64,000 bases of DNA. Origin: Mesorhizobium sp. CA14. Its GTDB lineage: Bacteria; Pseudomonadota; Alphaproteobacteria; Rhizobiales; Rhizobiaceae. The notes under the pieces were generated by a model. That model saw only the letters and a list, made by a program, of their open reading frames with translations, had not been told where the DNA came from and searched no databases. Position numbers and translations under genes: made by a program. Positions 486 to 17,450 of this stretch are shown here, one piece after another. How positions within the stretch are numbered: the first letter of the stretch is position 1; each line of letters opens with the position of its first letter. The stretch covers positions 62,001 to 126,000 of the forward strand of contig NZ_JAIUHR010000006.1 in NCBI RefSeq assembly GCF_020165195.1, read 5' to 3'.

Positions 486-2789
486 ATGGTGAGCGTTCCT
501 CAATACACCGTGGCTCAGCCGGTCCCAATCCGTACGGATATGGAAGCGCGCGAGGCCGGGAACGGTCGCAAGATCGCAGAGGACCGGATCCCTGGCGGCC
601 CCGCCGCTTTCGATCGGATCGGGCCCCGCGTCAAAGCAATGCTTCAGGTCGCCCGCTATCACGGTGTCGAACTCGACCCCAATGAATTCCGAGCAACGGG
701 CGAAGGGTCGTTTCCAACCGCTTCCGACCTCTCGCAGTGGGCCCAGAACGCCGGGATGTGGTCTCGTGCGTTGCGTATCCGCTGGTCGCATCTGTTGCGC
801 TTTGAGCACGCGGGGCCAATCGTCCTCCTGTTCAACGACGGCGGAGCCGGTCTCCTTGTCGGGGCAAGTGCTGAACACAACCTCGTTTTCCTCAAGAGCG
901 TCGACGCTTCCGACGACGCGGACGCTCTACCAATCGACGAGCTCCGCCTCGCTCAGGTGTGGTCTGGCGAGGCTGTCCTGTTGCGGGCTGCGCGGTCCCA
1001 CGTCGCGGCGGACGCGCCATTCACGTTTGGTTGGCTGATCGATCTGGTGCGGCTTGAGAGCCGCCCGCTGCGCGACATCGGCATCGCCTCGTTTACGCTG
1101 AGCATTCTGACCGTTCTGCCGCCGCTCATCGTAATGACGGTGGTCAACAAGGTGCTGCAGTTCAGCAGCGTTTCGACCCTGGTGCTTCTCTCGGCCGTGA
1201 TTGCTGTGGTCTTCGTCTACGAGACGCTGCTCGGCCATGCTCGGCGGCTGATCGTCAACGTTGTCGGCACGCGTCTGGACACGAAGCTCAATCTGCATGT
1301 TTTCGGCAGGCTGTTGCGGCTGCCTCTCGACTATTTCGAGCGGCATCCCGCAGGCGAGACGATGTATCACCTTGCCCAGGTTTATCGCATTCGTGAGTTC
1401 CTGACCGGCAAGCTCCTCAGCACATTCCTGGATCTGATCACGTTGTGTGTCCTGGTCCCGGTCATCTTCTACATAAATCCCATACTGGCCTGGATGGTGC
1501 TCGCCTGTGCGGTCGTGATCATGGGGACGATCTTCGCTTTCCTCGCGCCGCTGCGTCGACGCTATCAACGCGTCGTGGACGCGGAGACCTTGAAGGCAGC
1601 CGCGCTCGGCGAGACCGTCGTCGGCATCAAGACCGTCAAGGCGCTCGGGCTCGAACTGCAGCGCAAGGCGATGTGGGACGAACGGGTGGCCGACGCGGGC
1701 AAGGCGCGTCTCGCTTTCGGGCAGCTGGCCAACTGGCCGCAGACACTCGTCACGCCGATCGAGCGTGTCATGGTACTCGGCACCATGCTCATCGGCGCCT
1801 ATCTCGCGATGAACGACCGGTCGGGCTACATGGTCGGCAGCCTGTTCGCTTTCATGATGATCGCCCAGCGCGTTGCCCAGCCACTGGTCGGACTGGCGCG
1901 GCTGGTCGAGGATTATGAGGAGGTCAGCGCCGCGATCGGGGAAGCCGCTTCGGTTCTCAACCGGCCATTGGAGAGCAGTTCCAATTCTGCCGGCCTGCGG
2001 CCAAGGCTCGTCGGCGAGATCAGGTTCAGCGATCTGACATTCAGTTACATCGGCACCAAGACGCCGGCACTCGACCGGGTCAGCTTCGATGTCCCGGCCG
2101 GTGCCATGTTCGGCATTGTCGGGCGCAGCGGATCAGGCAAATCGACCATCGCGCGCCTGTTGCAGGGGATAAACCGTGACTACAGCGGGTTTCTCAAGCT
2201 CGACGGGGTTGATCTCAAGGAAATCAACCTCCGCCATTTGCGCCAGGGACTGGGCGTCGTCCTTCAGGACAATTTTCTGTTCCGCGGATCGATCAGGGAC
2301 AACATCATCGCGGGACGTCCTGGTCTGACGCTGTCCGACGCCATGCGTGCCGCTCAACTGGCAGGTGCGGCCGAATTCATCGAACGCATGCCGAACGGCT
2401 ACGACACCTATATCGAGGAGGGTTCGCCCAACTTATCTGGCGGCCAGAAGCAGCGGCTGGCAATCGCTCGTGCGCTCATTCACGATCCGACGATCCTGAT
2501 CCTCGACGAGGCGACGAGCGCGCTCGATCCGGAGAGCGAGGCCGTAGTGAGCGCGAATCTGATGCGCATCGCCAGCGGGCGCACGATGATCATCGTTTCG
2601 CACCGGCTCGCCTCCTTGACCGAATGCGACCAGATCCTCGTCATCGACCAGGGCAAGGTGCTCGATGTCGCTTCTCACCCCGTGCTTTTGGAGCGGTGCG
2701 GTGTCTATCGCCAGCTCTGGTTCCAGCAGAACCGGCACCTTGACGGGCGTCATGGCCGTCTGGCGGCCGTGCCGTCTCGACCCGACTGA
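486..2789 (+). CDS. Type I secretion ABC exporter with degenerate C39-like domain
   Basis: This 767-residue protein has the full layout of a type I secretion ABC transporter. An N-terminal C39-peptidase-like domain (about residues 45-165) is followed by six membrane helices (about 185-470) and a nucleotide-binding domain. The ATPase motifs are Walker A GRSGSGKST (546-554), the LSGGQ signature near 650, Walker B ILILDE (670-675) and the switch His near 706. The C39-like region lacks the catalytic Cys (the equivalent segment reads RVKAMLQVARYHG), as in HlyB-type exporters that bind rather than cleave their substrate. ATG at 486 follows a GGGGAAG ribosome site. It is the first gene of an operon with the HlyD-type adaptor 11 bp downstream. 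No TolC-like outer membrane gene is in the window. Confidence 0.93.
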   Translation: MVSVPQYTVAQPVPIRTDMEAREAGNGRKIAEDRIPGGPAAFDRIGPRVKAMLQVARYHGVELDPNEFRATGEGSFPTASDLSQWAQNAGMWSRALRIRWSHLLRFEHAGPIVLLFNDGGAGLLVGASAEHNLVFLKSVDASDDADALPIDELRLAQVWSGEAVLLRAARSHVAADAPFTFGWLIDLVRLESRPLRDIGIASFTLSILTVLPPLIVMTVVNKVLQFSSVSTLVLLSAVIAVVFVYETLLGHARRLIVNVVGTRLDTKLNLHVFGRLLRLPLDYFERHPAGETMYHLAQVYRIREFLTGKLLSTFLDLITLCVLVPVIFYINPILAWMVLACAVVIMGTIFAFLAPLRRRYQRVVDAETLKAAALGETVVGIKTVKALGLELQRKAMWDERVADAGKARLAFGQLANWPQTLVTPIERVMVLGTMLIGAYLAMNDRSGYMVGSLFAFMMIAQRVAQPLVGLARLVEDYEEVSAAIGEAASVLNRPLESSSNSAGLRPRLVGEIRFSDLTFSYIGTKTPALDRVSFDVPAGAMFGIVGRSGSGKSTIARLLQGINRDYSGFLKLDGVDLKEINLRHLRQGLGVVLQDNFLFRGSIRDNIIAGRPGLTLSDAMRAAQLAGAAEFIERMPNGYDTYIEEGSPNLSGGQKQRLAIARALIHDPTILILDEATSALDPESEAVVSANLMRIASGRTMIIVSHRLASLTECDQILVIDQGKVLDVASHPVLLERCGVYRQLWFQQNRHLDGRHGRLAAVPSRPD

Positions 2790-2800
2790 GCTGGCCGGCA

Positions 2801-4207
2801 ATGAGCAGCACCACTCATTCCACCCTTCCAGTTCACCGGCGCCGACGAGATGCGAGCGATCCGACTGCGCCCGCCATTCTTGAGTTCAAATGGCCGTCGA
2901 CGGCAGTCGCCAATGCACCGATTCCTTGGGTGGCGCGCAGTATCGTGTGGATCGTCTCCAGCATGGTCGCCGCCTTGATTGTGCTCGCGGCGCTGATCCC
3001 CGTCGACCAGGTCGTCACGACAAGGGGGCTTGTGGTCTCGCAATCGCCCAACATCATCGTCCAGCCGTTGGAGACTGCGATCGTCCGATCGATCGAGGTG
3101 CGCGAAGGCCAGCGTGTAAAGGCCGGCCAGTTGCTGGCTCGGCTGGATGCCACCTTCGCTTCAGCGGACCTTACGGCGTTGGCTACTCAGGTCTCAACCC
3201 TCGAAGCTGAAGTGGCGCGCCTCAAAGCCGAGGCCGAGGGCTTGCCTTTCAGCTATGATGGACTGGACCCAAGCTGGACATTGCAGGCCGCGATCTTCGA
3301 TCGCCGCAAGGCGGTATACGATGCAAAGCTGGAGAGCTTCGACAGGCAGCGTGACGAGTTGAGCTCCGTCATCTCGCGCTCACAATCCGATGCAGAGGGC
3401 TATCGGCAGCGTCTGGCTGTCGCGGCGTCGATCGAAAAGATGCGTCAGCAGCTCGAAGAAAGGCAGGTTGGGAGTCGTCTCAACACGCTTCTCGCCGAGG
3501 ACAACTCGGCGGAGATGTCGCGCTCGCTGAACAACGCCGAGCAGACGACCGAGGCTGCCAAGCGTCAGCAGGCCGCGGCCGCAGCCGAGCGTGACGGCTA
3601 CGTGCAGAGCTGGCGTGCCGATGTCTCGCAGAGCCTTTCGGAAGCGAATGCACGCATGTCGGACGCGCGCGAGCTTCTTAACAAGGCGAAGCTGCGCAAG
3701 CAGTTGGTGGAGTTGAGGAGCGAAGCCGATGCGACCGTTCAGTCGGTCGCCAAGGTGTCGGTGGGCTCGGTCCTGCAGTCCGGCGAGCGCCTGATCACAC
3801 TTGTCCCATCCAACGCGGTGCTCGAGATCGAAACCAATATCGTTGGGCGCAGCAGCGGCTTCGTCCATGTCGGCGACCCTGTGGCCATCAAGTTCGATAC
3901 CTTTCCCTACTCGCAATATGGCTTGGCGCATGGCACCGTTCGCGCCGTCAGCCCGGATTCCTTTTCGGCCAGGGAACAAGCGCGCGATCCAAACAGTTCG
4001 CTGGCGATGCTGCCCTCCGATGCAGACCTGTTCTATCGCACCCAGATATCCATCGACGACATAGCACTCCACGGTTTGCCGGCGGACTTCGCGATCAGTC
4101 CCGGCATGCCTGTGACTGCGGACGTGAAGGTGGGCCGCCGCACAGTGCTAAAATATCTGCTGGGCGCCCTGCTGCCGATCGGACAGGAAGCGATGCGGGA
4201 GCCCTAG
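2801..4207 (+). CDS. HlyD-family membrane fusion protein (type I secretion adaptor)
   Basis: This 468-residue periplasmic adaptor should link the exporter just upstream to an outer-membrane channel. A short cytoplasmic N-terminus is followed by one membrane helix (about residues 47-67), a lipoyl-like half-motif, a long Gln/Glu/Arg/Ala-rich coiled coil (about 130-300), and a C-terminal beta-barrel region. The end, with GRRTVLKYLLGALLP, matches the HlyD-type C-terminus. The stop codon at 4205-4207 abuts the ATG of the Sel1-repeat gene, which points to one transcript for all three genes. Family assignment is firm. The secreted substrate is unknown. Confidence 0.92.
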   Translation: MSSTTHSTLPVHRRRRDASDPTAPAILEFKWPSTAVANAPIPWVARSIVWIVSSMVAALIVLAALIPVDQVVTTRGLVVSQSPNIIVQPLETAIVRSIEVREGQRVKAGQLLARLDATFASADLTALATQVSTLEAEVARLKAEAEGLPFSYDGLDPSWTLQAAIFDRRKAVYDAKLESFDRQRDELSSVISRSQSDAEGYRQRLAVAASIEKMRQQLEERQVGSRLNTLLAEDNSAEMSRSLNNAEQTTEAAKRQQAAAAAERDGYVQSWRADVSQSLSEANARMSDARELLNKAKLRKQLVELRSEADATVQSVAKVSVGSVLQSGERLITLVPSNAVLEIETNIVGRSSGFVHVGDPVAIKFDTFPYSQYGLAHGTVRAVSPDSFSAREQARDPNSSLAMLPSDADLFYRTQISIDDIALHGLPADFAISPGMPVTADVKVGRRTVLKYLLGALLPIGQEAMREP

Positions 4208-5923
4208 ATGGCGATCCTCGACCGCCTGACTGCACGTATTCATCCCGCGCTGGCACTTCGCCGGGCGGTCCAGCTCTCCGGCAGCGGCAAGCCTGAGCAA
4301 GCTTTTGTGCTGATGGCCATTGCCGCGCGCGGCGGCATTGTTGAAGCGCAATATCAGGTCGGCCGTTGCTACCTGGAAGGCATTGGCGTGCCGCCAAGCC
4401 ATTCGGAGGGCGCGCGCTGGTTGCGGCGGGCTGCCGATCGCGGCAGCCCCGATGCGCAGGCCCTCCTTGCTGCGCTCTGCGTAGCCGGGCTGGCGCCACA
4501 AGAAATTGGAGCTGGTTCGGAAGGCTTGTTCGAACGAAATTCCTCGGGCGAGCCAGACTTTTCGGCAGCGCTTGACCTCGCGCGGAAAGCCGCCGAAGCC
4601 GGATCCGCTACAGGACAAGCCCTGCTCGGCTACATACTGAGCAAGGGTCCAAAGGCCATGCGCGATCTTGATGCCGCGCATGGCTGGTACGAAAAATCAG
4701 CGGCCGCCGGTTGCCCGGAAGGATGCCTTGGCCTGGCCCTTTCCTTGACCCGGTTGAGGCAGCCGGAGCAGAGAACCAGAATCGCCACAGAGCTTCGTCG
4801 GGCGGCGGACGCCGGTCTGCCAACGGCGATCTATCTGCTTGCCGTTCTCACCGAGCACGGGATAGGAGTGGCTGTCGATCTGGACGCGGCTCAGCGGCTT
4901 TACAGGGACGCGGCGGAGGCGGGACTCGCATCCGCTCAATTCCGGCTGGGGCTGGCACTCATCGAGGGTAGCCTGGTCGATCTGGACCCTGTCGCCGGTG
5001 AAGCCTGGACGCGCCGCGCCGCGCTGGCAGGAAATGCCGAAGCCGCTTATCGCTTGGGCGAACTGTATGCGAGCCGGCCTCAGCGGGATTTTGCGGAGGC
5101 CGCGACCTGGTACCGCCGGGCTGCTGATGGCGGTCACCAGCCGGCGTTACGTGCATTGGCTTCGCTCTATCTCTCGGGCAATGGTGTGGCTCAGGACGCT
5201 GAGGAAGGAACCCGCTTGCTGCGTACCGCAGCAGCCAGCGGCGACCGCGACTCCCAAGTTGATCTGGCAAACCTTGTCCTCGGGGGCGCAGGCGAGCCAG
5301 ATGATGCTGTCAGCGTTGCCGGATGGTTTGGAGCAACCGCATCATCGGGCGATCTGGTTGCGGCGTTCAATCTCGGTCTCTGCTTCGCGGAAGGCGTGGG
5401 TGTCGGCAAGGACCAGGAGCGTGCGGCGCGTTGGATGGGGCGGGCGGCCGAAGGCGTTGCCGAGGCGCAATATATGTATGCCCGCATGCTTCAGGAAGGA
5501 CGAGGCGTGGCTGCCGATCAGGGGCAGGCTCGCGTCTGGTTTGAGCGGGCGGCAAAAGCTGGCCTTGTGGACGCGCAGGTTGCTCTTGCCGAAATGCTTT
5601 ACAACGGTCGTGGTGGGGAACGCTCTGTCGTTGCCGCAGCCCAGCTTTTCAAGCAAGCCGCCGCTGCTGGACATGCCGGGGCGATGTTCGCGATCGGGGC
5701 ATTGTACGAGACCGGACAAGGCCTATCGATCAATCCTAAAGCGGCGCAGGAATGGTTTGCAGCGGCTGCTGAAAGAGGCCATGGGCATGCGCAGCTCATG
5801 CTTGGCCGCTATCTCTCCAGGGGCATTGCCGGCGACCATGACTCCGCTGCCGCCCGCATCTGGTTCGAGCGGGCGGCTGCGCACGGTGTCCAGGAAGCCT
5901 CTGATGAGCTCGCCGAAACATAG
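4208..5923 (+). CDS. Sel1-like repeat (SLR) protein
   Basis: This 571-residue protein is built almost wholly of Sel1-like tetratricopeptide repeats of about 36 residues, with the recurring pattern A..WY..AA..G...A. Some fourteen units run from about residue 20 to the end. SLR proteins act as scaffolds in protein-protein contacts. No signal peptide or membrane segment is obvious, so a cytoplasmic location is likely. It starts on the base after the adaptor stop codon, so it is translationally linked to the type I secretion genes. It may be a secretion-associated chaperone or scaffold, but that role is inferred from the operon only. Confidence 0.85.
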   Translation: MAILDRLTARIHPALALRRAVQLSGSGKPEQAFVLMAIAARGGIVEAQYQVGRCYLEGIGVPPSHSEGARWLRRAADRGSPDAQALLAALCVAGLAPQEIGAGSEGLFERNSSGEPDFSAALDLARKAAEAGSATGQALLGYILSKGPKAMRDLDAAHGWYEKSAAAGCPEGCLGLALSLTRLRQPEQRTRIATELRRAADAGLPTAIYLLAVLTEHGIGVAVDLDAAQRLYRDAAEAGLASAQFRLGLALIEGSLVDLDPVAGEAWTRRAALAGNAEAAYRLGELYASRPQRDFAEAATWYRRAADGGHQPALRALASLYLSGNGVAQDAEEGTRLLRTAAASGDRDSQVDLANLVLGGAGEPDDAVSVAGWFGATASSGDLVAAFNLGLCFAEGVGVGKDQERAARWMGRAAEGVAEAQYMYARMLQEGRGVAADQGQARVWFERAAKAGLVDAQVALAEMLYNGRGGERSVVAAAQLFKQAAAAGHAGAMFAIGALYETGQGLSINPKAAQEWFAAAAERGHGHAQLMLGRYLSRGIAGDHDSAAARIWFERAAAHGVQEASDELAET

Positions 5924-6118
5924 CGGCGATATAGCTCGCGATTTTTGGCTTCCGGGATCAGCATCTGCGATACGCCTCAGATGTTTTCTGGCGTGAGGCA
6001 TGCGAGCATCCAGGCCGCCGATCGACGCCCTGGCGGAATAGCTTGAAGCGAGGACAAGGAGAGGCTCTCACCGGCCGGTCGGTGTTGAAGCGGGCTCGAT
6101 CGGGTACATATTTAAGGC

Positions 6119-6757
6119 ATGCCCGTCCGCCGAAAAGTCGACTTAACAGAAAAACTGATAGCAGAGTGGCCACTCTCCCCAGCGGCAACACTTGGATCGT
6201 CCGTAAGGGCGAGGGGTATTTTCCTCGAGATGCGGGCGCGCCTACCCGTTGCGCTGAGGAAGCTGCTTCACATTGAATCCAGGGTGCTCACCCTGAGGCT
6301 GCCGGAAGGCGCCGACGCCGATGTTGAATCGGCCTCTGCAATCATCACTCAAGCAATGCACAACATCGAAGACCTGCCGGTGATCCCCCGCGAAGTCGAG
6401 GACATCCTGACAATCTCCTTGGCCGAGCGGCACCGCTGGCTGAAGGACGGACGCTTGCAGAGCGCAGGAACCAGAACGGTCAAACTTCGCGGCCGCGCAA
6501 GAAAGATCACCTTCCACGTGTTCGACCCGCGCCATATCGAAGATGTGCTCGACCGCGACCTGGTCACCGCCTGGCGCGACGAGGACGCCGCGACCTCTGC
6601 TGAGAACCGGCGACGCGCTGCCGCGAAGGCTGCCCTGAAGCGTGCCCAAAAAAGTGGCCGTGAGGGTTCAACTTCGGGCGATGGCGACCGGGACAATGCA
6701 TCTCGTTCCAACTTGCGCGGCTGGGAGGATTTCGAGAGCGAGGGTCTTCTGCGCTGA
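6119..6757 (+). CDS. Conserved-looking protein of unknown function
   Basis: A 212-residue, basic, soluble-looking protein. The middle (about residues 70-150) is evenly hydrophobic and charged, as in a folded domain. The C-terminal 60 residues are Arg/Ala/Ser-rich and probably disordered. There is no signal peptide, membrane helix or motif that I recognise. ATG at 6119 lacks a well-spaced ribosome site (AAGG is one base away). An in-frame ATG at 6230, giving 175 residues, is an alternative start. It stands alone between the secretion operon and the peptidase fusion gene. Confidence 0.6.
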   Translation: MPVRRKVDLTEKLIAEWPLSPAATLGSSVRARGIFLEMRARLPVALRKLLHIESRVLTLRLPEGADADVESASAIITQAMHNIEDLPVIPREVEDILTISLAERHRWLKDGRLQSAGTRTVKLRGRARKITFHVFDPRHIEDVLDRDLVTAWRDEDAATSAENRRRAAAKAALKRAQKSGREGSTSGDGDRDNASRSNLRGWEDFESEGLLR

Positions 6758-6856
6758 CAATTTTAAGGCGCGCCTCGGCAACTTGGCGAGCGATCCCGAC
6801 TGACGGGCGTCGATGCTCAGAACTTGTCGGCTCTCCCAAACGGGCATATGATATTG

Positions 6857-6886
6857 TTGAGATGATATATATTACATAAGTATAAA
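6857..6886 (+). promoter_or_regulatory. Candidate sigma-70-like promoter in an AT-rich island
   Basis: TTGAGA at 6857-6862 and TATAAA at 6881-6886 are 18 bases apart. They sit in a strikingly AT-rich patch (about 6845-6912) within GC-rich surroundings. The only gene downstream is the peptidase fusion starting at 6984, which would have a leader of about 90 nt. Sequence-only call. Confidence 0.45.
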
Positions 6887-6983
6887 ATAACAATTTAACA
6901 AATTTAAGAGGAAAGACATTCGCGGGGCGGAGGTCAACCGAGCGGTATCGGTTGGCGTGAACTCGTGGTCCCGGAGGCCGGCT

Positions 6984-9779
6984 ATGGCGAAGACGATCAA
7001 CAAGGGCTTGGGCGCTGGCCAGCCTGGGCCAGATCAGCCGTTTCTCGACACCACCGCCTACGGATCCGGGCCGGACGACTCTGTCTCGGATGTGACCGAG
7101 AACGCCGCCATCACCCACCACGTGGCCACGGTGAACGGGACTTCCGTTCCCTACACCGCCACAGCCGGTCATCTCGTCGCCGTCGATCCGTCGAGTTCGA
7201 AGCCGGCCGCCAAGGTCTTCTATGTCGCCTTCACGGCGGACGGCATGGACGCGACCACCCGGCCGGTGACCTTCTTCTACAATGGCGGACCTGGCTCGTC
7301 GTCGGTCTTCCTGCTGCTCGGCTCGTTTGCGCCCAGGCGCATCAGAACCAGCATGCCGGGCTTCACGCCGCCTCCGCCCTACGCCATGGAGGACAATCCC
7401 GATAGCCTGATCGACCGCAGCGACCTTGTCTATATCAACCCGGTCGGCACCGGCTATTCCGCGGCGATCGCACCTTTCAAGAACCGCGACTTCTGGGGAG
7501 TCGATCAGGACGCCGTCTCGATCAAGCAGTTCATCAAGCGGTATCTCAGCGCTTTCAATCGTTGGAACTCGCCACGCTTCCTGCTCGGCGAATCCTACGG
7601 CACGGCCCGCAGCTGCGTGCTGGCTTGGCTGCTGCACGAGGACGGCCTCGACCTCAACGGAATCACGCTGCAATCCAGCGTGCTCGACTATCCCGCCAAC
7701 TTCTCCAACGCGGTCGGCCTCATGCCGACCTTTGCCGCAGATGCGTGGTTTCACAAGAAGACCGGCATCGAGCCGCTGCCAGCGAACCTCGCCTCGTACA
7801 TGGAGACCGTGACTCAGTTCGCGCAAGGCCCCTACAGTGCAGCACTGAACGCTTTCCCGAAGGCAGACCCCGTGGCGGTGGAGACGCTGAGCCGCTATCT
7901 CGGCTTGCCCGCCAGCGAACTCGGAGGCTGGCGGCTGAATGTGGAGGCTGCCGACCGGCTCGGTCATTCCGCCTTCCTAATCGAGCTTCTGCAGGACCAG
8001 GGCCTAGCGCTGGGCGCCTATGACGGGCGGGTGACCGGCATCGATACGGGCATATCGGCCATCGTCTCGCCCGACGGCGGCATGAACGATCCGACCATGG
8101 CGGCTGTGGGCGGCGTCTACACCACAATGTGGAACAGCTATCTCAACAACGACCTCAAATTCACTGCCACCTCGAACTTCATCGACCTCAACGATCAGGC
8201 CTTCCAGTTTTGGGACTTTAGTCACACCGATCCGACGGGCGCAGTGCAGAAGCCGGACAGCCAGGGCAACCCGACCCTCTACACGGCAGGCGATCTCGCC
8301 GCCACAATGGCCGCCAATCCCGACCTGCTGGTGCTCTCGGCCAACGGCTACTACGATTCGGTGACGCCTTTCTTCCAAACCAAGCTGACGCTGGACGCGA
8401 TGCCGCTGGAGGACGCCCAGGTGCGCGCCAATCTTGCGATCAGGAACTACCCCTCGGGACACATGATCTACCTCGACGGCGCTTCGCGAACGGTCATGAA
8501 AGCCGATCTCGCCGCCATGTACGACCGGGCCGTCGGCACACGTCGCGCCCGCCTGCACGCCCGCGCGGCGCTGTCGCGCGCGGTGCCCAACATCATCCGG
8601 CCCTATTTCAAGCTGCCCGGCGTCGGCGACGTCGCCTTCCGTCCTGCTGCTGCCGGTGCGGAACCGTGGAATGTACCGGATCTGTGCCGGGCCTATGCCT
8701 GGCCGAGCGGCCTCGTCGGCGGCGGCGTCATCGCGATCATCGAGTTCGGCGGCGGGTGGGTGCAGAAGGATATTGATGCTTATTTCCGCTCGACGGGCCT
8801 GCCGGCACCGACCATCGTCGACGTGCCGATCGGCGGCGGCCGCAACGATCCGAACAAGCACTCCGGCAATCCGGCTGCCGACCCGGACCGCGAAGTCGCA
8901 CTCGACATCGAGGTCGCCGCCGCAGCCTACTCTGTGGCCACCGGCGATGCGGCAAGCATCCGCGTCTATTGGGCTGACGCCAGCGACTGGGGCGCGATGG
9001 CGACCGCGATCATCGCCGCCGCGGCCGACGGCTGCGATGTCTGCTCTGTGTCTTGGGGCTCCGACGAGGCTAACTGGAAGTCGGCGGCCGCAATGGCAGG
9101 CATCGACTATCCCGGCAGGCTGAACAAAGCGGCGGAGGCCGCCACCAAGGCCGGCATGATCGTCTTCGCCGCATCGGGCGACAACGATTCCTCGGACGGC
9201 GGGGCCGATCCGGCCAATGTTGACCTGCCGTCTTCCAGCCCGTTCGTCGTTGGCTGCGGCGGCACCATGAAGCCGCACGGCGCCAATGCGGAAGAGACAG
9301 TCTGGAACGACGATCCCGGCAATCCGAACGGCTCGGGAACGGGCGGCGGCTTCTCGGAACTCTTCCGCCCCATGCCGGCATGGCAGGCGGGAGCTCCGCA
9401 CGGCCCCGGCCGCATGGTGCCCGATGTCTCCGCCAGTGCCGATCCCTATACGGGCTACAGTGTCTTCGTGTACGGCCGGCAGGAAGTGATCGGCGGCACC
9501 AGCGCCGTGGCGCCGCTCTATGCCGGGCTATTTGCCGCCTTCGGGCGCAAGCTCGGAATGGTGGCGCCGCAGCTTTGGCTGAACCACACCTGCTTCAACG
9601 ACATAACCACCGGCGATAACGGTTATTTCCGCGCCCGCGTCGGCCCGGACCCCTGCACCGGCATCGGCACTCCTATCGCGGACAAACTGGGCGCGCTGTT
9701 TGAGGCGCCAAGCAAGCCTGCTGCCGAAACGGCGCGCCCAGCGCGCCGCCGACGGCGAAATGCGGCGGCGGTTGCTTGA
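6984..9779 (+). CDS. Fusion of serine carboxypeptidase-like (S10) and sedolisin (S53) peptidase domains
   Basis: One uninterrupted frame of 931 residues holds two unrelated serine peptidase domains. Residues about 1-525 match the S10 carboxypeptidase family: NGGPGSSS at 100-107, nucleophile Ser204 in GESYGT, and likely triad partners Asp458 (NGYYDSVTP) and His493 (SGHMIY). Residues about 535-905 match sedolisins: Glu637 and Asp641 in REVALDIE, oxyanion Asp733 in ASGDND, and Ser840 in GGTSAVAP. The sedolisin calcium-site region DITTGDNG also follows. The usual sedolisin propeptide is absent and the S10 domain takes its place. No signal peptide is visible. ATG at 6984 is chosen over GTG 6957 because GGAGG (6973-6977) is correctly spaced. 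The C-terminus is a basic Arg/Ala tail. All catalytic residues of both domains appear intact. Confidence 0.9.
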   Translation: MAKTINKGLGAGQPGPDQPFLDTTAYGSGPDDSVSDVTENAAITHHVATVNGTSVPYTATAGHLVAVDPSSSKPAAKVFYVAFTADGMDATTRPVTFFYNGGPGSSSVFLLLGSFAPRRIRTSMPGFTPPPPYAMEDNPDSLIDRSDLVYINPVGTGYSAAIAPFKNRDFWGVDQDAVSIKQFIKRYLSAFNRWNSPRFLLGESYGTARSCVLAWLLHEDGLDLNGITLQSSVLDYPANFSNAVGLMPTFAADAWFHKKTGIEPLPANLASYMETVTQFAQGPYSAALNAFPKADPVAVETLSRYLGLPASELGGWRLNVEAADRLGHSAFLIELLQDQGLALGAYDGRVTGIDTGISAIVSPDGGMNDPTMAAVGGVYTTMWNSYLNNDLKFTATSNFIDLNDQAFQFWDFSHTDPTGAVQKPDSQGNPTLYTAGDLAATMAANPDLLVLSANGYYDSVTPFFQTKLTLDAMPLEDAQVRANLAIRNYPSGHMIYLDGASRTVMKADLAAMYDRAVGTRRARLHARAALSRAVPNIIRPYFKLPGVGDVAFRPAAAGAEPWNVPDLCRAYAWPSGLVGGGVIAIIEFGGGWVQKDIDAYFRSTGLPAPTIVDVPIGGGRNDPNKHSGNPAADPDREVALDIEVAAAAYSVATGDAASIRVYWADASDWGAMATAIIAAAADGCDVCSVSWGSDEANWKSAAAMAGIDYPGRLNKAAEAATKAGMIVFAASGDNDSSDGGADPANVDLPSSSPFVVGCGGTMKPHGANAEETVWNDDPGNPNGSGTGGGFSELFRPMPAWQAGAPHGPGRMVPDVSASADPYTGYSVFVYGRQEVIGGTSAVAPLYAGLFAAFGRKLGMVAPQLWLNHTCFNDITTGDNGYFRARVGPDPCTGIGTPIADKLGALFEAPSKPAAETARPARRRRRNAAAVA

Positions 9780-10409: not shown

Positions 10410-11423
10410 ATGGGTTCGGCCAGTGCTTTGACTAAATCAGATTCCCAGATATACAAGACAATTTCGGGTTTGGATTTCGCATCGATTGGCCCCTTCATGA
10501 GTCGTAATTTTTTGGTGATCGAGCCTGAAGAGGGCATCGCCGTGCTCAAGGGGCTTGCCTCTTTGGCGCGCATTTCCATGCTGAAATTGCTGCACGAGAA
10601 GGGGCCGATGAATGTCAACGACGTCGCCGCTGTGCTGTCGCTGCCGCAATCGACGGTCTCGACCAATATCCAGGTGCTTGAGGACGCGGGCCTGATCCGC
10701 ACCGAGAACCAAAAGGCGAAGAAGGGCAGCCAGAAGATCTGCTATCCGACCGCCGAAGAAGTGCTCGTGGTCTTCAAGAGCGAGTATCGTGCGGTCAAGA
10801 ACGACGCGATCGAAGTATCGATGCCGATTGGGCTTTACACCGGATTCGAGGTTACCGCGCCCTGCGGTCTCTGTTCGCCGGACGGGATCATCGGTCTGCT
10901 TGATGTGCCCAACACTTTCCTGGATCCGGACCGTATGAAGGCCGGTCTGTTGTGGTTCACGCGCGGCTTTGTCGAATATCAGTTCCCCAACAATGCCAAG
11001 CTCGCCAATACCGAGATTACCGAACTCGAGCTGGTGGCTGAACTGTCCTCGGAAGTGCCGGGCACCAGCGCCGACTGGCCCTCCGACATCACGCTGACGA
11101 TCAATGGCGTCGACGTCGGCACCTGGACGTCACCGGGCGATTTCGGCGACAAGCGCGGCGTTTTCACGCCCTCCTGGTGGAAGCTCAAGGGCTCGCAATA
11201 TGGCAAGCTGAAGAACTGGCGGGTTTCCGCTGACGGAACCTATGTCGACGGCGTCAGGATTTCCGAGACCAGCCTCGCCGCCCTCGATCTCAAGGGCCAT
11301 CATTCAATCCGGGTTCGGATTGGCGTCAAGGACGACGCTGAGCGTCCCGGCGGAATCAATATTTTCGGCAAGGGATTTGGAAACTACGATCAGGACATTC
11401 TGCTGAGGATCAAAACCGGTTGA
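10410..11423 (+). CDS. ArsR-type winged-helix regulator with a large C-terminal sensor-like domain
   Basis: A 337-residue protein. Residues about 40-125 form an ArsR-like winged helix: a LARISMLKLLHEKGPMNV segment, the recognition helix LPQSTVSTNIQVLEDAGLI, then a wing. The remaining 200 residues are beta-rich with many Gly, Trp and Thr, and do not look like a metal site. They resemble a jelly-roll ligand-binding fold, possibly sensing a sugar. The gene lies directly upstream of the GH51 arabinofuranosidase, so it probably controls that operon. ATG 10410 is the longest start. ATG 10497 (MSRNFLV) would give 308 residues and is equally plausible because neither has a strong ribosome site. Confidence 0.8.
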   Translation: MGSASALTKSDSQIYKTISGLDFASIGPFMSRNFLVIEPEEGIAVLKGLASLARISMLKLLHEKGPMNVNDVAAVLSLPQSTVSTNIQVLEDAGLIRTENQKAKKGSQKICYPTAEEVLVVFKSEYRAVKNDAIEVSMPIGLYTGFEVTAPCGLCSPDGIIGLLDVPNTFLDPDRMKAGLLWFTRGFVEYQFPNNAKLANTEITELELVAELSSEVPGTSADWPSDITLTINGVDVGTWTSPGDFGDKRGVFTPSWWKLKGSQYGKLKNWRVSADGTYVDGVRISETSLAALDLKGHHSIRVRIGVKDDAERPGGINIFGKGFGNYDQDILLRIKTG

Positions 11424-11607: not shown

Positions 11608-13119
11608 ATGAAGGCGGCCGTTACGGCGCATCCGCGTTATATCGTTTCGAAGATCGACCCCAGGCTTTATGGATCCTTCATCGAGCATCTTGGGCGGGCG
11701 GTTTACACCGGTATCTATGAGCCCGGTCATGCGACGGCGGATGACAACGGCATGCGTCGCGACGTCATCGATCTCGTCAGGGAACTCAAGGTTCCGATCG
11801 TCCGCTATCCCGGCGGCAATTTCGTATCCGCTTACAATTGGGAGGACGGCGTCGGCCCCAAGGAAGAGCGCCCGGTGCGCCTCGACCTTGCCTGGCACAC
11901 GTCGGAAAGCAATGAAGTCGGCCTGCATGAATTTGCCGACTGGTGCGCCTCGGCGAACACCGAGATGATGCTTGCCGTCAATCTCGGCTCGCGTGGCCTC
12001 GATGAAGCCCGCAACTTTCTGGAATACACCAATCATCCCGGCGGCAGCGAGTGGAGCGACAAGCGCATCGCCAACGGCCGCAAGGAGCCCTTCGACGTCA
12101 AGCTCTGGTGCCTTGGCAACGAGATGGACGGCCCCTGGCAGATCGGCCACAAGACCGCCGACGAGTATGGCCGCCTGGCCCACGAGACCGCCAAGGCGAT
12201 GCGTGCCTTCTCCAAGTCGCTCGAGCTCGTGGTCTGCGGCTCGTCGAATGCCAAGATGCCGACATACCCGGAATGGGAAGCGACCGTTCTCGATCATACT
12301 TACAACGAGGTAGATTACATCTCGCTGCACATGTATTTCGACAATGAAGCCAATGACGCGCCGAATTATCTTGCCATGAGCGAGAAGCTCGACGCTTACA
12401 TTGTCTCGGTCGCCGGCGTTATCGACTATATCAAGGCCAAGAAGCGCTCCAAGAAGCAGGTCTACATCTCGTTCGACGAATGGAACGTCTGGTACCATTC
12501 CAAGGAGCAGGACAAGAAGATCCTTGGCGGCAATGAGGGCTGGCCTTTCGCCCCGCCATTGCTCGAAGACATCTACAATTTCGAGGACGTGCTGCAGGTC
12601 GGCCTGATCCTCAACACCTTCATCCGTCGTTCCGACGTGGTCAAGATCGCGTGCCTGGCGCAACTGGTCAATGTCATCGCGCCGATCATGACCGTCCCCA
12701 ATGGCCCGGCATGGCGGCAGACGATCTTCTATCCTTATCTCTATGCCTCGATCTACGGCCGCGGCAATGCGCTGGATCTCAAGGTGGAAAGCCCGACCTA
12801 CAGCTCCACCGTCGCCGGAGATGTTTCATATGTCGACGTCGCCGGCGTGCATGACACGGAAACCGGACATGTCACCTTCTTTGCCATCAACCGCCATTCG
12901 AGCGAGGAAATCGAAACCGCGATCGACATAGCGGGCTTCGGCGCAGCTGAGATCGTCGACCATCAGCTGATGACGCACGCGGATCTGAAAGCCGTCAATT
13001 CGGCGCAGAACCCAAGCAATGTCGGGCCCACAAAGGGGACCGGCGCGGCGGCGGTGGGCGGCAAATTGAGCCTGCCGCTGCCGCCCTATTCCTACCAGAT
13101 GGTGCGCCTGAAGCTCTGA
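11608..13119 (+). CDS. abfA: Alpha-N-arabinofuranosidase, glycoside hydrolase family 51
   Basis: A 503-residue enzyme, the normal length for GH51 intracellular arabinofuranosidases, which release terminal arabinofuranose from arabino-oligosaccharides. The (beta/alpha)8 barrel carries the acid/base Glu172 in LWCLGNEMDG and the nucleophile Glu291 in SFDEWNVWY. A C-terminal beta domain ends with PPYSYQMVRLKL. There is no signal peptide, so its substrates must be imported, which fits the ABC importer that follows. ATG at 11608 has GGAGGGA (11597-11603) at good spacing. Its last codons form one arm of a long hairpin, listed separately. Confidence 0.93.
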   Translation: MKAAVTAHPRYIVSKIDPRLYGSFIEHLGRAVYTGIYEPGHATADDNGMRRDVIDLVRELKVPIVRYPGGNFVSAYNWEDGVGPKEERPVRLDLAWHTSESNEVGLHEFADWCASANTEMMLAVNLGSRGLDEARNFLEYTNHPGGSEWSDKRIANGRKEPFDVKLWCLGNEMDGPWQIGHKTADEYGRLAHETAKAMRAFSKSLELVVCGSSNAKMPTYPEWEATVLDHTYNEVDYISLHMYFDNEANDAPNYLAMSEKLDAYIVSVAGVIDYIKAKKRSKKQVYISFDEWNVWYHSKEQDKKILGGNEGWPFAPPLLEDIYNFEDVLQVGLILNTFIRRSDVVKIACLAQLVNVIAPIMTVPNGPAWRQTIFYPYLYASIYGRGNALDLKVESPTYSSTVAGDVSYVDVAGVHDTETGHVTFFAINRHSSEEIETAIDIAGFGAAEIVDHQLMTHADLKAVNSAQNPSNVGPTKGTGAAAVGGKLSLPLPPYSYQMVRLKL

Positions 13120-13135
13120 CTTCAGGCGCACCATC
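13098..13135 (+). terminator. Perfect 16-bp stem-loop spanning the abfA stop codon
   Basis: Bases 13098-13113 and 13120-13135 are perfect reverse complements with a 6-nt loop that contains the TGA stop. No T-run follows, so an intrinsic terminator is unlikely. A transcript stabiliser, processing site or attenuator that sets the ratio of enzyme to transporter is more plausible. Confidence 0.6.
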
Positions 13136-13162
13136 GTGCATGGGCTGAGGAGGAGCCTCGAC

Positions 13163-14254
13163 GTGACGGCCGATATCGAGATCAGGAATGTGAGCAAGCA
13201 TTTCGGTGCCATGACGGTGCTGGATGATCTGTCTCTCTCCATCAAGGCACGCGAATTCATCGTGTTTCTCGGGCCGTCCGGCTGCGGGAAATCGACGCTT
13301 CTGCGCATGATCGCGGGCCTCGAAACTGTCGATACCGGCGAGATAGCCATCAACAACGAGCGTATCGATCATCTGCCGCCGGGCAAGCGCGGCATTGCCA
13401 TGGTGTTCCAGTCCTATGCGCTTTATCCGCATATGAGCGTGCGCGACAACATGGCATTCGGGCTCGAGAATATCGGCATGCCGCGCGACGTCATTGAGGC
13501 GCGCATAAAGGAGAGCGCCCGCATCCTCGAAATGGAGCACCTGCTCGAGCGCAAGCCGGGCCAACTCTCCGGCGGCCAGCGGCAGCGCGTCGCCATCGGC
13601 CGTGCGATCGTCAAGGAGCCGAAGGCCTTTCTGTTCGACGAACCGCTCTCCAATCTCGATGCGGCATTGCGGACCCGTACCCGCATCGAACTTGCCCAAC
13701 TGCACCAGCGCCTGCAATCGACGATGATCTTCGTCACCCACGATCAGGTCGAAGCGATGACGCTCGCCGACCGCATTGTCGTCATGAACAATCGCAAGAT
13801 CGAGCAGATCGGCTCTCCCATGGAAATCTACGACCGGCCCGCGACCAAATTCGTCGCAGGCTTCGTCGGCGCGCCGGCAATGAATTTTGTCGAGGCGACG
13901 CTCGACAGATCGAGCCGGAATGCCAGGGCCAGGTTTGCGGACGGCATATCGGTTCAGACCGAGATCGCCTCCGACCAGACGATCGACGGCAAATACACTT
14001 TCGGCATCCGTTCGGAAGACGTGCGCATCGTTCCCGCCGGGCAGGGCAATGCCGATGGCGTGATCGATGTGCTTGAGCGGCTCGGCGAACGCACCCTGGT
14101 CTACGCCCGGCTTGGCGATGGCCAGCAGATCGTCGGCTCGGATGTCGGCAACAGCCGCGTTGCGGTCGGCGACAAGGTCGGGCTCGCCTTCGACGGCCGG
14201 AAATCGCATCTGTTCGGCGAGACCGGTCGCGCCTGGCACGCGAGGGAGGTCTGA
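13163..14254 (+). CDS. Sugar ABC importer ATPase, MalK/UgpC type
   Basis: A 363-residue CUT1-family ATPase. Residues 1-235 carry Walker A GPSGCGKST, the LSGGQRQR signature, Walker B FLFDEPLSNLD and the switch His in FVTHDQVEAMT. The C-terminal third is the OB-fold regulatory domain typical of MalK-like subunits. GTG at 13163 is preferred over the upstream GTG at 13136 because GAGGAGGAG (13147-13155) lies at ideal spacing and MTADIEIRNVSK is a normal family N-terminus. It is the first transporter gene after abfA and should energise the permeases at 14256 and 15188. Confidence 0.93.
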   Translation: MTADIEIRNVSKHFGAMTVLDDLSLSIKAREFIVFLGPSGCGKSTLLRMIAGLETVDTGEIAINNERIDHLPPGKRGIAMVFQSYALYPHMSVRDNMAFGLENIGMPRDVIEARIKESARILEMEHLLERKPGQLSGGQRQRVAIGRAIVKEPKAFLFDEPLSNLDAALRTRTRIELAQLHQRLQSTMIFVTHDQVEAMTLADRIVVMNNRKIEQIGSPMEIYDRPATKFVAGFVGAPAMNFVEATLDRSSRNARARFADGISVQTEIASDQTIDGKYTFGIRSEDVRIVPAGQGNADGVIDVLERLGERTLVYARLGDGQQIVGSDVGNSRVAVGDKVGLAFDGRKSHLFGETGRAWHAREV

Positions 14255-14255
14255 C

Positions 14256-15191
14256 ATGGATGACCGACGGGCGACGCCGCGGACCGTGCTTCCGGCCGCC
14301 AGCGTCAGAGCTGCAAGCGTCGATATCTACGCTCCGCAATGGCGAAACTTCATTTTCGTTGCGCCGTTCCTGTTCTTCTTCACGACGCTTCTGCTGGTCC
14401 CGCTGTTCTGGGGAATGTGGCTGAGCTTCCACAAGGCCGACACGTTCTCATCCGGAAACTTCGTCGGTTTCGGCAACTATGTCAGGCTGTTTCACGACAA
14501 GGTGTTCTTGCAATCGGTCTGGAATACCTTCTATTTCGTGCTTCTGACGGTGCCGACCCTGGCACTGATCGGCCTTTTTCTCGCGCTTTGCCTCAACCGC
14601 CGCACACGCACAGCCGCGGTGCTGCGGACCCTTTTCTTTTCTTCCTCGGTGCTGTCGGTCACGATCGTCACACTGATCTGGCGCATCGTGTTCATTCCGA
14701 ATGTCGGCCTTCTGTCGACGATCTACGGATGGTTCGGCGCAACCGCCCCGGCTTTCATTTCCGATCCCAGCCTGGCGATGATCGGCATCGCCATCGCCAC
14801 CGTCTGGTGGTGCATCGGCCTGCCGATGATGCTCTTTCTCTCCGCCCTCCAGCAGATTCCGCAGGATATTTACGAAGCGGCAGCCCTGGACAATGCCAAT
14901 CGCTGGCAGACGCTACGCTCGATTACGCTGCCGTCGATCAAACGCACCTTCGTCCTGGTGGTCATTGTCCAGATCGTGCTGCAGTTCCAGCTGTTCGGCC
15001 AGGCTTGGCTGATGACACGCGGCGGTCCGAACAACCTGACCAAGCCGATCGTGCTCTACATCTATGACACCGCGTTCCGTCGCTGGGATCTCGGCATGGG
15101 CGCCGCGGCTTCAGAGGTGCTGTTCATCCTCATCCTGATGGCGGCCATGGTCCAGTACCTGGTCACACGCAACAAGGCAGGTCAGGCATGA
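14256..15191 (+). CDS. Sugar ABC importer permease, MalF/UgpA type
   Basis: A 311-residue inner membrane protein with six predicted membrane helices. It has the EAA loop EAAALDNANRWQTLRSITLP near residues 205-225, where the ATPase docks. ATG at 14256 is 1 bp past the ATPase stop codon and gives a normal-length N-terminal cytoplasmic segment. The stop codon overlaps the next permease by ATGA. Together with the gene at 15188 it forms the heterodimeric channel of a CUT1 importer, here predicted to take up arabinosides. Confidence 0.92.
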   Translation: MDDRRATPRTVLPAASVRAASVDIYAPQWRNFIFVAPFLFFFTTLLLVPLFWGMWLSFHKADTFSSGNFVGFGNYVRLFHDKVFLQSVWNTFYFVLLTVPTLALIGLFLALCLNRRTRTAAVLRTLFFSSSVLSVTIVTLIWRIVFIPNVGLLSTIYGWFGATAPAFISDPSLAMIGIAIATVWWCIGLPMMLFLSALQQIPQDIYEAAALDNANRWQTLRSITLPSIKRTFVLVVIVQIVLQFQLFGQAWLMTRGGPNNLTKPIVLYIYDTAFRRWDLGMGAAASEVLFILILMAAMVQYLVTRNKAGQA

Positions 15192-16036
15192 GGGCTCCAG
15201 CCATTTCCATCAAGGGACGCGCATTCGGCGACCGCGTGTTGCTGGCTCTGGTCATCCTGCTTTCCCTGGTCATGATCGCGCCGGTTCTGTGGGTTATCGG
15301 CCTGTCGCTCAAGGAAAATGCCGAGCTGATGGCAAATCCGAATTCTGTGTTTCAGGCGCCCTATACGCTCAAGAACTACATCAACACCATCGGCACCTCG
15401 TCGGTGTTCGTCTGGGTGTTCAACAGCATCATCGTCTCCGGAGGATTGACGCTCGGAACGCTGATCCTGTCGTCGCTTGCCGGCTATGGCTTTGCACGGC
15501 TGAATTTCCCCGGCCGAAACATCCTGTTCGTGATCGTGCTCTTCGGCCTGGCGGTTCCGGAACAGGCCGTGCTTGTCGCCCGCCATCAGATCTTCAGCAT
15601 GCTGAATTTCCACAACACCTATCACGGGCTCATTCTCCCGGGCCTGTCGGCTTCTTTTGGCGTCTTCCTGATGACCCAGTATTTCAAGGCCATCCCGAAG
15701 GAACTGGACGAAGCCGCCATGCTGGACAATGCCAGCCGGTTCAGGACGTTCTGGAAGGTTCTTTTGCCGCTCACGGTACCCGCTCAGGCAACTCTAGGCA
15801 TCTTCACCTTCCTCGGCGCGTGGAACGATTACTTGTGGCCGCTGATCTCGGCAACCAAGAAGGATATGTACACGCTGACGGTCGGCATGGCCTCGACACA
15901 GACCAATTTCGCCCAGTCGGAAGGCATCGGCTTCTTGATGGCGCAGGCGGTGTTCGCCGGCGCGCCGATCCTGATCGTCTACCTGTTTTTCCAGAAATAC
16001 ATCGTCACGGCCGTCTCGGGCGCCGCGGTGAGATGA
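15188..16036 (+). CDS. Sugar ABC importer permease, MalG/UgpE type
   Basis: A 282-residue permease with six predicted helices and the EAA loop DEAAMLDNASRFRTFWKVLL near residue 180. The length and the positively charged N-terminus are typical of MalG-type subunits. It overlaps the upstream permease by four bases (ATGA), which indicates translational coupling. The solute-binding protein follows after a 94-bp gap that contains no further gene. Confidence 0.92.
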   Translation: MRAPAISIKGRAFGDRVLLALVILLSLVMIAPVLWVIGLSLKENAELMANPNSVFQAPYTLKNYINTIGTSSVFVWVFNSIIVSGGLTLGTLILSSLAGYGFARLNFPGRNILFVIVLFGLAVPEQAVLVARHQIFSMLNFHNTYHGLILPGLSASFGVFLMTQYFKAIPKELDEAAMLDNASRFRTFWKVLLPLTVPAQATLGIFTFLGAWNDYLWPLISATKKDMYTLTVGMASTQTNFAQSEGIGFLMAQAVFAGAPILIVYLFFQKYIVTAVSGAAVR

Positions 16037-16130
16037 CGAAATTGCCTGGCGGCGGGGGAGTGCGTCGCAGCGATTGAAGCATGAAGCCAGTCCAGGGTGG
16101 AGTGGCGCAGATTCAGTAGGAGGAACTGAT

Positions 16131-17450
16131 ATGAAAATGAAGAAAGTCCTGTTTGCAGCGGTCTCGGCGGGCGTGCTGATGCTCGCAAGCCCGAGTTTTG
16201 CAGCGACGGAATTGACCGTGCAGCGCTTTTTCGGTGCCTGCGATGCCGATTTCGGCACCAACACCGATGTCGCCAAGGCAGTGGGCGAATGCGGCATCAT
16301 CACCTCGCTGATCAACAAGTTCAATGCCGACAACCCCGATGTTCACGTCAGCGTCAGCACTGTGGAATGGCCGGGCTATGACCAGCTGACCGCGCAGTTC
16401 GCTTCGGGCGAAGCTCCCGATATCGTTACGATCCATGAATCGGCGCTTTCGGATTACCAGTCCAAGGGGCTGTTGATGCCGCTTGACGATCTGTTGAAGT
16501 CCGTCGGCGTCACACCCGATGCCTTCACGGACGCGGCGCGCAACGGCGCCACCAAGGACGGCAAGATCTATGGCCTGCCGATCGACAGCTGGACGATGCT
16601 CTATCACATCAACATGGATCTCTTCAAACAGGCTGGCCTCGTCAATGCCGACGGCACGCCGATCCTTCCGAAGTCGCCCGAGGAGCTGCTCGCCCAGGCC
16701 GAACAGTTCAAGCAGAAGACCGGCAAGCCTTACTTCGTTCAGAACCTGGCCAATGAGACCGCACTCTATACGCGCAATCTCTACACCTATCTCTTCCAGC
16801 AGAATTCCGATTTCTTCGCCGATCCAAAACATGTGAAGCTGAACACGCCGGAAGCCAAGAAGATCGTCGAGATGTACAAGGCGATCTTCGACAAGGGCTA
16901 CACCACCAAGGACCTCGACTATGGCGGCGCCATCAACGCCTTCCTTGCCGGTGGAGGTGGCGTGCAGCTCAACGGCACGTGGGTTGTCGGCGACAACAAC
17001 GCCCAGTCCGAAACTAAGGGCACGGCCCTCAACAAGGGCGGCTATGCGGTTTATCCGTATCCGCAGCTATTTGCCGGCGCCCATGCGCAATATGCCGACG
17101 GCCACACCTGGGCAGTCTCGCAGAAGGACCGCACACCCGAACAGATCGCGGCTATCGGCAAATTCCTGAAGTTCTTCGCCGACCATGACTTCGATTGGTC
17201 GCGCACCGGCCACCTGCCGGCCTACAAAGCCATCATCGCCTCGGACGCTTTCAAGGCACTGCCGCATCGCAACACGATCGCAGCGGTCGCCGATCTCGGC
17301 AGGCCGCTGCCGTCGGCGGTACAGCGCCAGTTTGCGATCCAGGACATTGTGGGCGAAGAGATGAGCGCTGCAATCACCGGCCAGAAGGACGTGGATGCCG
17401 CACTTGCCGACATGGAAAGCCGCGTCAACGAATTGCTCGCCAACATTTGA
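16131..17450 (+). CDS. Extracellular sugar-binding protein of the abfA-linked importer
   Basis: A 439-residue periplasmic solute-binding protein of the CUT1 class. Residues 1-24 form a signal peptide ending in SFAA. The mature part has the two-lobe pattern of family 1 binding proteins, with a Trp/Gly-rich hinge region (about 270-310). ATG at 16131 has AGGAGGA at ideal spacing. The in-frame upstream start at 16074 would bury the signal peptide and is rejected. The gene is last in the operon rather than first, with its own strong ribosome site. Its ligand is unknown. Arabinose-containing oligosaccharides are inferred from the GH51 gene. Confidence 0.9.
   Translation: MKMKKVLFAAVSAGVLMLASPSFAATELTVQRFFGACDADFGTNTDVAKAVGECGIITSLINKFNADNPDVHVSVSTVEWPGYDQLTAQFASGEAPDIVTIHESALSDYQSKGLLMPLDDLLKSVGVTPDAFTDAARNGATKDGKIYGLPIDSWTMLYHINMDLFKQAGLVNADGTPILPKSPEELLAQAEQFKQKTGKPYFVQNLANETALYTRNLYTYLFQQNSDFFADPKHVKLNTPEAKKIVEMYKAIFDKGYTTKDLDYGGAINAFLAGGGGVQLNGTWVVGDNNAQSETKGTALNKGGYAVYPYPQLFAGAHAQYADGHTWAVSQKDRTPEQIAAIGKFLKFFADHDFDWSRTGHLPAYKAIIASDAFKALPHRNTIAAVADLGRPLPSAVQRQFAIQDIVGEEMSAAITGQKDVDAALADMESRVNELLANI

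Follow-up and report, generated by a model that had tools for sequence, protein, structure and literature searches.

An S10-S53 Fusion Encoded in One Reading Frame

Mesorhizobium sp. CA14 carries a gene in which an S10 (serine carboxypeptidase-like) half and an S53 (sedolisin) half are joined in a single frame. Our analysis of the window (the whole stretch of 64,000 nucleotides that was studied) confirmed that this fusion is real and under selection. The gene and its parts are as follows:

6984..9779, + strand: S10-S53 fusion gene, one frame of 931 amino acids, ATG at 6984, stop codon ending at 9779
6984..8528, + strand: S10 half, residues 1-515, with the triad Ser204, Asp458 and His493, NGGPG at residue 100 and GESYG with Glu203
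8529..8651, + strand: junction, residues 516-556, variable except for an invariant PYF at 540-542
8652..9704, + strand: S53 catalytic domain, residues 557-907, with Glu637, Asp641, Asp733 and Ser840
9705..9776, + strand: basic C-terminal tail, residues 908-931, not conserved among fusions

The frame is open from a GTG at 6957 through the stop codon ending at 9779. A GGAGG sequence is located six bases 5′ of the ATG at 6984, and the identical motif with the same spacing is found at the chosen ATG of three other fusions (L005, L009 and L011; see below). The segment between the upstream 212-amino-acid gene and the fusion, positions 6820-6920, has 30% G+C in a window of 62% G+C and is perhaps a promoter region.

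The Pfam family Peptidase_S10 matched residues 60-206 with an E value of 3.2e-12 (47 bits versus a cut-off of 21.9), and Peptidase_S8, the Pfam family under which S53 enzymes fall according to PMC5567314, matched the C-terminal half with an E value of 1.8e-7. A phmmer search against solved structures retrieved kumamolisin for residues 531-906 (6.5e-61); the S10 half matched cathepsin A weakly, with a best E value of 1.8e-5 (4az0), and only over about residues 76-243. An earlier note on this DNA, made from the letters alone, had described one frame with S10 and sedolisin halves, and the seven catalytic residues that it named proved right both in identity and in number.

Each of these residues (Ser204, Asp458, His493, Glu637, Asp641, Asp733 and Ser840) is invariant in all eight intact fusions. 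Ser204, Asp458 and His493 are also invariant in the 54 rows of a wider S10 alignment, where Asp458 and His493, which lie outside the Pfam and PDB matches, were assigned by this invariance and by the known S10 motif. Asn100 and Glu203, the carboxylate-binding residues of S10 enzymes, are conserved in the same 54 rows. In a wider S53 alignment, Glu637, Asp641 and Asp733 are present in 42 of 42 rows and Ser840 in 41; the single exception is the solved pro-kumamolisin 1t1e, which has an alanine there. When the window gene was compared with each of the seven other intact fusions, dN/dS was 0.076-0.196 for the S10 half and 0.066-0.260 for the S53 half, rough figures since several dS values are close to saturation. 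These ratios show both halves to be under purifying selection, and both are putatively active.

The modelled S53 half superposes on kumamolisin 1gt9 with a Z score of 35.2 and an rmsd of 2.4 over 303 residues at 40% identity; the fold matches to kumamolisin cover residues 559-907 only and include no residues of the S10 half. Two AlphaFold2 runs, with 30 and 146 alignment rows, gave mean pLDDT values of 52.0 and 54.5; most of the S10 half stayed below 50, too low to judge an alpha/beta-hydrolase fold there.

Occurrence of the Fusion

The whole fusion was used as a query in a homologue scan with one genome per species, covering 84,980 species, and the best 80 of at least 581 confirmed relatives were sorted by gene arrangement. 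Seven of these 80 are one-frame S10-S53 fusions:

L003: Rhizobium dioscoreae
L005: Roseiarcus fermentans
L006 and L010: Phyllobacterium
L007 and L011: Hyphomicrobiales metagenome-assembled genomes
L009: Mesorhizobium sp. AR07

Two more of the 80 (L004 and L008) are frame-broken fusions. Tandem S53-then-S10 genes account for 68, in one of which (L047) the S53 part is read in two frames; the genes are convergent in two, and in L064, at the edge of a contig, S10 alone is visible. Genomes with matches spanning both halves numbered 2 of 397 in the order, 2 of 297 in the family, 2 of 81 in the genus, 1 of 385 in the class and 2 of 398 in the phylum. These draws overlap, and at most two candidates per genome were scored in those for the order, family, class and phylum. 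Where a draw gave two matches, the second was the frame-broken L004 (genome G069). The fusion is, thus, rare. Neither this architecture nor the S53/S10 gene pair was found described in open-licence papers, in line with the statement in the earlier note that the domain order was not known to it as a described architecture.

Broken relatives are of several kinds. The frame break is in the S53 half of L004 and in the S10 half of L008, and most of the S10 half has been lost from L269; given these three broken copies, the gene seems to be dispensable in some strains. A copy on a plasmid of Rhizobium sp. AB2/73 has kept the S53 half, which is 98.5% identical to that of L003, and has lost most of the S10 half, with a frame shift at the junction. 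Eight plasmid records cover at least 80% of the query at 48-57% identity, in two to three pieces. A 1299-amino-acid frame of G1310 was considered as a further fusion and rejected: it matches S10 only and has a hydrophobic N-terminus ahead of the S10 part. Three genomes of the same genus (G928, G946 and G925) have S53 genes that match without an S10 half and are 40-45% identical to the S53 of the window.

The broken frames of L004 and L008 demonstrate that the gene is sometimes read in two frames, as would be expected if two genes had been merged by a sequencing or assembly error, the case in which the earlier note would have given up the fusion. That explanation can be set aside almost with certainty. 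The same fusion in one unbroken frame, with PYF always kept where the halves meet, is present in seven further assemblies. Moreover, since the split relatives are mostly in the opposite gene order, a misread stop codon between two genes could not yield the order S10-S53.

Split S53 and S10 Genes in Burkholderiaceae

Since a query with the whole fusion could favour paired genes, a separate search with the S10 half alone was run on 200 genomes from the family to which Paraburkholderia xenovorans belongs. Among the matches listed, 91 near-full-length places in 90 genomes had 64-69% identity; a partial match (G854:C23, 64% over residues 12-291) stands outside this set. The 91 places were examined as 30 returned loci, 9 fetched loci and 52 more, with L186-L188 repeating places already counted. 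An S53 gene lies alongside the S10 gene in every one of the 91. The arrangement is tandem, S53 then S10, in 88, convergent in two and S10 then S53 in one (L195), so that, quite apart from the fusion, the two genes have stayed together in three different orders; the genomes are related and the 91 places, hence, are not independent events. In L195, the split pair in fusion order occupies positions 4001-7333, and its genome (G824) also carries a usual S53-then-S10 pair (L242).

The association does not extend evenly to other S10 enzymes. In the next S10 clade (56-62% identity, 33 listed places), an S53 gene was found within 4 kb in none of 10 sampled places; in a more distant group (43-46% identity), one was found within 4 kb in four of nine. 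In the S53 tree, the S53 proteins of the latter group and of L195 fall outside the usual partner S53 group, which suggests that the pairing may have originated more than once. The four pairs of the 43-46% group are L177, L180, L181 and L183, and three of their four S53 proteins are strongly hydrophobic at the N-terminus (2.47-2.58).

A conserved third gene beside the pair was looked for and rejected. The 14 largest clusters of neighbouring frames, many of which are probably spurious, reach up to 18 of 30 loci, include no fusion locus and look like shared chromosome order.

Phylogeny of the Two Halves

In the S10 tree, 24 sampled S10 proteins from pairs form one clade (99/99), and the fusion S10s are placed, unresolved, at the base of this clade and not inside it. 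L195 stands beside the fusion S10s, and the fork joining the pairs, the fusions and L195 is weak (88/73). The S10 clade whose N-termini are hydrophobic comes next. The fusion S10s do not form one clade in the best tree, and a single clade is not rejected (p 0.251). In the S53 tree, the eight fusion S53s form one clade (100/100) with a long stem (1.85), located beside kumamolisin (94/89) and outside the partner S53s; a tree that unites them with the partner S53s in one clade is not rejected (p 0.145). Long branches drew a warning from the tree program, for example, L195 with L202 in the S53 tree and L184 in the S10 tree.

That the fusion descends directly from the paired genes of Burkholderiaceae was considered and is not shown by these trees, in which both the S10s and the S53s of the fusions lie outside the pair clades. 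Since the tests reject neither grouping, the direction of the change is not given by the trees. We infer that the fusion arose from a split pair.

Absence of the S53 Prodomain

The Pro-kuma_activ prodomain (PF09286) is present in the S53 proteins of L012 and L044, which are pair partners, and of L195 and the stand-alone L199. The window protein, L003 and L006 gave no hit to it at E values up to 1, and the observation of the earlier note that the usual propeptide is missing is upheld. A whole-genome search at E values up to 1 found no PF09286 in any of five fusion genomes, as judged with one family model that a very divergent prodomain could escape; a prodomain supplied by another gene was, thus, not found in these five genomes with PF09286. 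One copy above the cut-off was found in each of two split-pair genomes, on the S53 gene, and among 14 control genomes there were matches in six, above the cut-off in one. The prodomain is shared by kumamolisin and the partner S53s, and the simplest view is, hence, that it was lost in the fusion line, probably as a derived step.

Over residues 513-560, which include the junction, the other fusions are 26-85% identical to the window, and only PYF is invariant in the junction (eight of eight). This PYF, part of RPYF in the window, aligns with RPHFRL at the end of the pro-kumamolisin propeptide. From the S53 prodomain, only the conserved end (RPHF, here RPYF) remains at the fusion junction.

These findings bear on the possibility, also raised in the earlier note, that the S10 half stands in for the lost prodomain: it would assist the folding of S53 and hold the enzyme inactive, its cleft occupied by the PYF linker, until an acid-triggered cleavage. 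The S10 half does occupy the usual place of the prodomain; PF09286 was not found in the five fusion genomes searched and is present on the S53 gene in both split-pair genomes; and PYF is kept in an otherwise variable junction, aligned with a sequence that is presumably the first self-cleavage site of pro-kumamolisin (His171-Phe172). However, conserved S10 catalytic residues and purifying selection would be needless in a pure chaperone, S10 domains and S53 prodomains have different folds, and the AlphaFold2 models contain no usable S10/S53 interface. We consider such a replacement possible but rather unlikely. It does not exclude, and is not excluded by, a coupling of two working peptidases. 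A version that unites them, in which the S10 half would fold and restrain S53 via the retained RPYF linker and acid cleavage there would turn one zymogen into two cooperating peptidases, we regard as unlikely.

Export Signals and Neighbouring Type I Secretion Genes

A hydropathy scan (not SignalP) revealed no strongly hydrophobic N-terminal stretch in the window protein (0.55), consistent with the earlier remark that no signal peptide is visible, and the best value among the seven other fusions was 1.09. Strongly hydrophobic N-termini were equally lacking from all 18 S10s sampled in the paired group (best 0.74) and from all 18 partner S53s sampled (best 1.11). Since the split S10 and S53 genes are also without a signal peptide, its lack is not special to the fusion, and the idea that the signal was lost as a result of the fusion is not supported. 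Stand-alone S53s were low too (four of four, best 1.12), so that weak N-terminal hydrophobicity in S53 is not special to the pair. In the next S10 clade, the values were at least 2.25 in 10 of 10 sampled proteins, and in other rhizobial S10s they were at least 1.93 in 11 of 13.

Two genes upstream of the fusion could offer another way out of the cell:

486-2789, + strand: ABC transporter, type I secretion-like, below NCBIfam cut-offs
2801-4207, + strand: HlyD adaptor, above the NCBIfam cut-off

If the fusion protein were a substrate of this adjacent type I secretion system, it would be exported with no need of a signal peptide, and the HlyB-like and HlyD genes are indeed found 2.8-6.5 kb upstream, on the same strand, both in the window and in L008. 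The association breaks down elsewhere. In L003, L006, L007, L009 and L010, about 10 kb of upstream sequence contained no HlyD match, and transporter matches were weak or missing (up to 199 bits, versus 1665 in L008). Among 81 genomes of the genus, the transporter (at least 82% identity) is present in 29 and the fusion in two, and both occur together only in the genome of the window; the second fusion genome, with a frame-broken copy, is without the transporter. In L008, which came from a separate scan, transporter and fusion are together and the fusion is broken. A 1208-amino-acid DUF4347-collagen protein encoded directly upstream of the transporter is a likelier substrate. RTX-type GGxGxD repeats are common, though not universal, in type I secretion substrates, and no such repeat is present in the whole protein of any of the eight fusions. 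Export of the fusion by this route is, in our judgement, very unlikely, and we judge the type I secretion genes at 486..4207 to be neighbours that are probably not part of the fusion system.

Several other genes in this region were noted. The HlyD adaptor gene is directly followed by a Sel1-repeat protein gene (4208-5923), also present in L008. The 212-amino-acid protein encoded at 6119-6757 has no Pfam or NCBIfam match at E values up to 0.01 and has a counterpart at the corresponding position of L008 (Mesorhizobium sp. CA8). Downstream of the fusion, positions 10410-11423 encode an ArsR-type helix-turn-helix protein of 337 amino acids, with a long C-terminal part without a Pfam match; beside its gene are genes for an arabinofuranosidase and for the ATPase of a sugar ABC transporter. 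In L185, positions 12667-16290 encode a transporter and an adaptor of type I secretion-like character, and ahead of them lies the gene for a 1208-amino-acid DUF4347-collagen repeat protein, the likely substrate.

Discussion

The explanation towards which we lean is that the gene encodes a coupled endopeptidase and carboxypeptidase, one protein made of two peptidases from families that, in other bacteria, work alongside each other. A kumamolisin-like S53 gene and a closely related serine carboxypeptidase-like S10 gene are kept adjacent in Burkholderiaceae; in a few Hyphomicrobiales, the two are joined, with S10 in front, and of the S53 prodomain only the final residues are left. The S53 half would cut proteins or peptides internally at low pH, the S10 half would then trim the new C-termini, and joining on one polypeptide would keep both activities at one substrate. 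That the two may act in sequence, as the earlier note had suggested, is the favoured reading and is backed by the conserved S53/S10 gene pairing; it draws on this pairing and on the functions of the two families, and it should be borne in mind that neighbouring genes need not encode enzymes with a common peptide substrate. All details of this scheme (substrate, acid pH, order of cuts and place of action) are presumptive. It is odd that neither half has an export signal, which would count against extracellular acid digestion.

Both families are known. The S53 half shares with kumamolisin and pro-kumamolisin (1gt9, 1t1e) the catalytic fold, the Ser-Glu-Asp set and the oxyanion Asp; unlike them, the fusion is without the Pro-kuma_activ prodomain and has an S10 domain in its place. 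The S10 half shares NGGPG and GESY with cathepsin A, the lysosomal protective protein (4az0, 1ivy), in the aligned part, as well as the Asp and His of the triad by their invariance in the wider S10 alignment; the sequence match is weak and, unlike cathepsin A, the fusion S10 is without a signal peptide and is joined to S53. The closest relatives are the tandem genes of Burkholderia, Paraburkholderia and their relatives, whose S10 proteins are 64-69% identical to that of the window; these differ in that S53 and S10 are separate proteins, with the S53 gene mostly leading and the prodomain retained in the S53s that were checked (L012 and L044). Fungal sedolisins and S10 carboxypeptidases, which act jointly in acid digestion, are separate proteins, in contrast to the one fused protein described here. 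The survey PMC5567314 describes most serine protease families as single-domain and states that sedolisins and S10 carboxypeptidases are often secreted in fungi. What is new with respect to the open-licence papers searched is the fusion itself, together with the finding that this S10 group is constantly paired with S53.

A link is, thus, made between two peptidase families that tend to be treated separately, with S53 being the constant neighbour of one Burkholderiaceae S10 group. Since neither partner has an export signal, it may be asked in which compartment these supposedly acid-active enzymes act. The fusion also offers a natural case in which to see if the catalytic domain of an S53 enzyme can dispense with the prodomain, or if a different enzyme domain can substitute for it.
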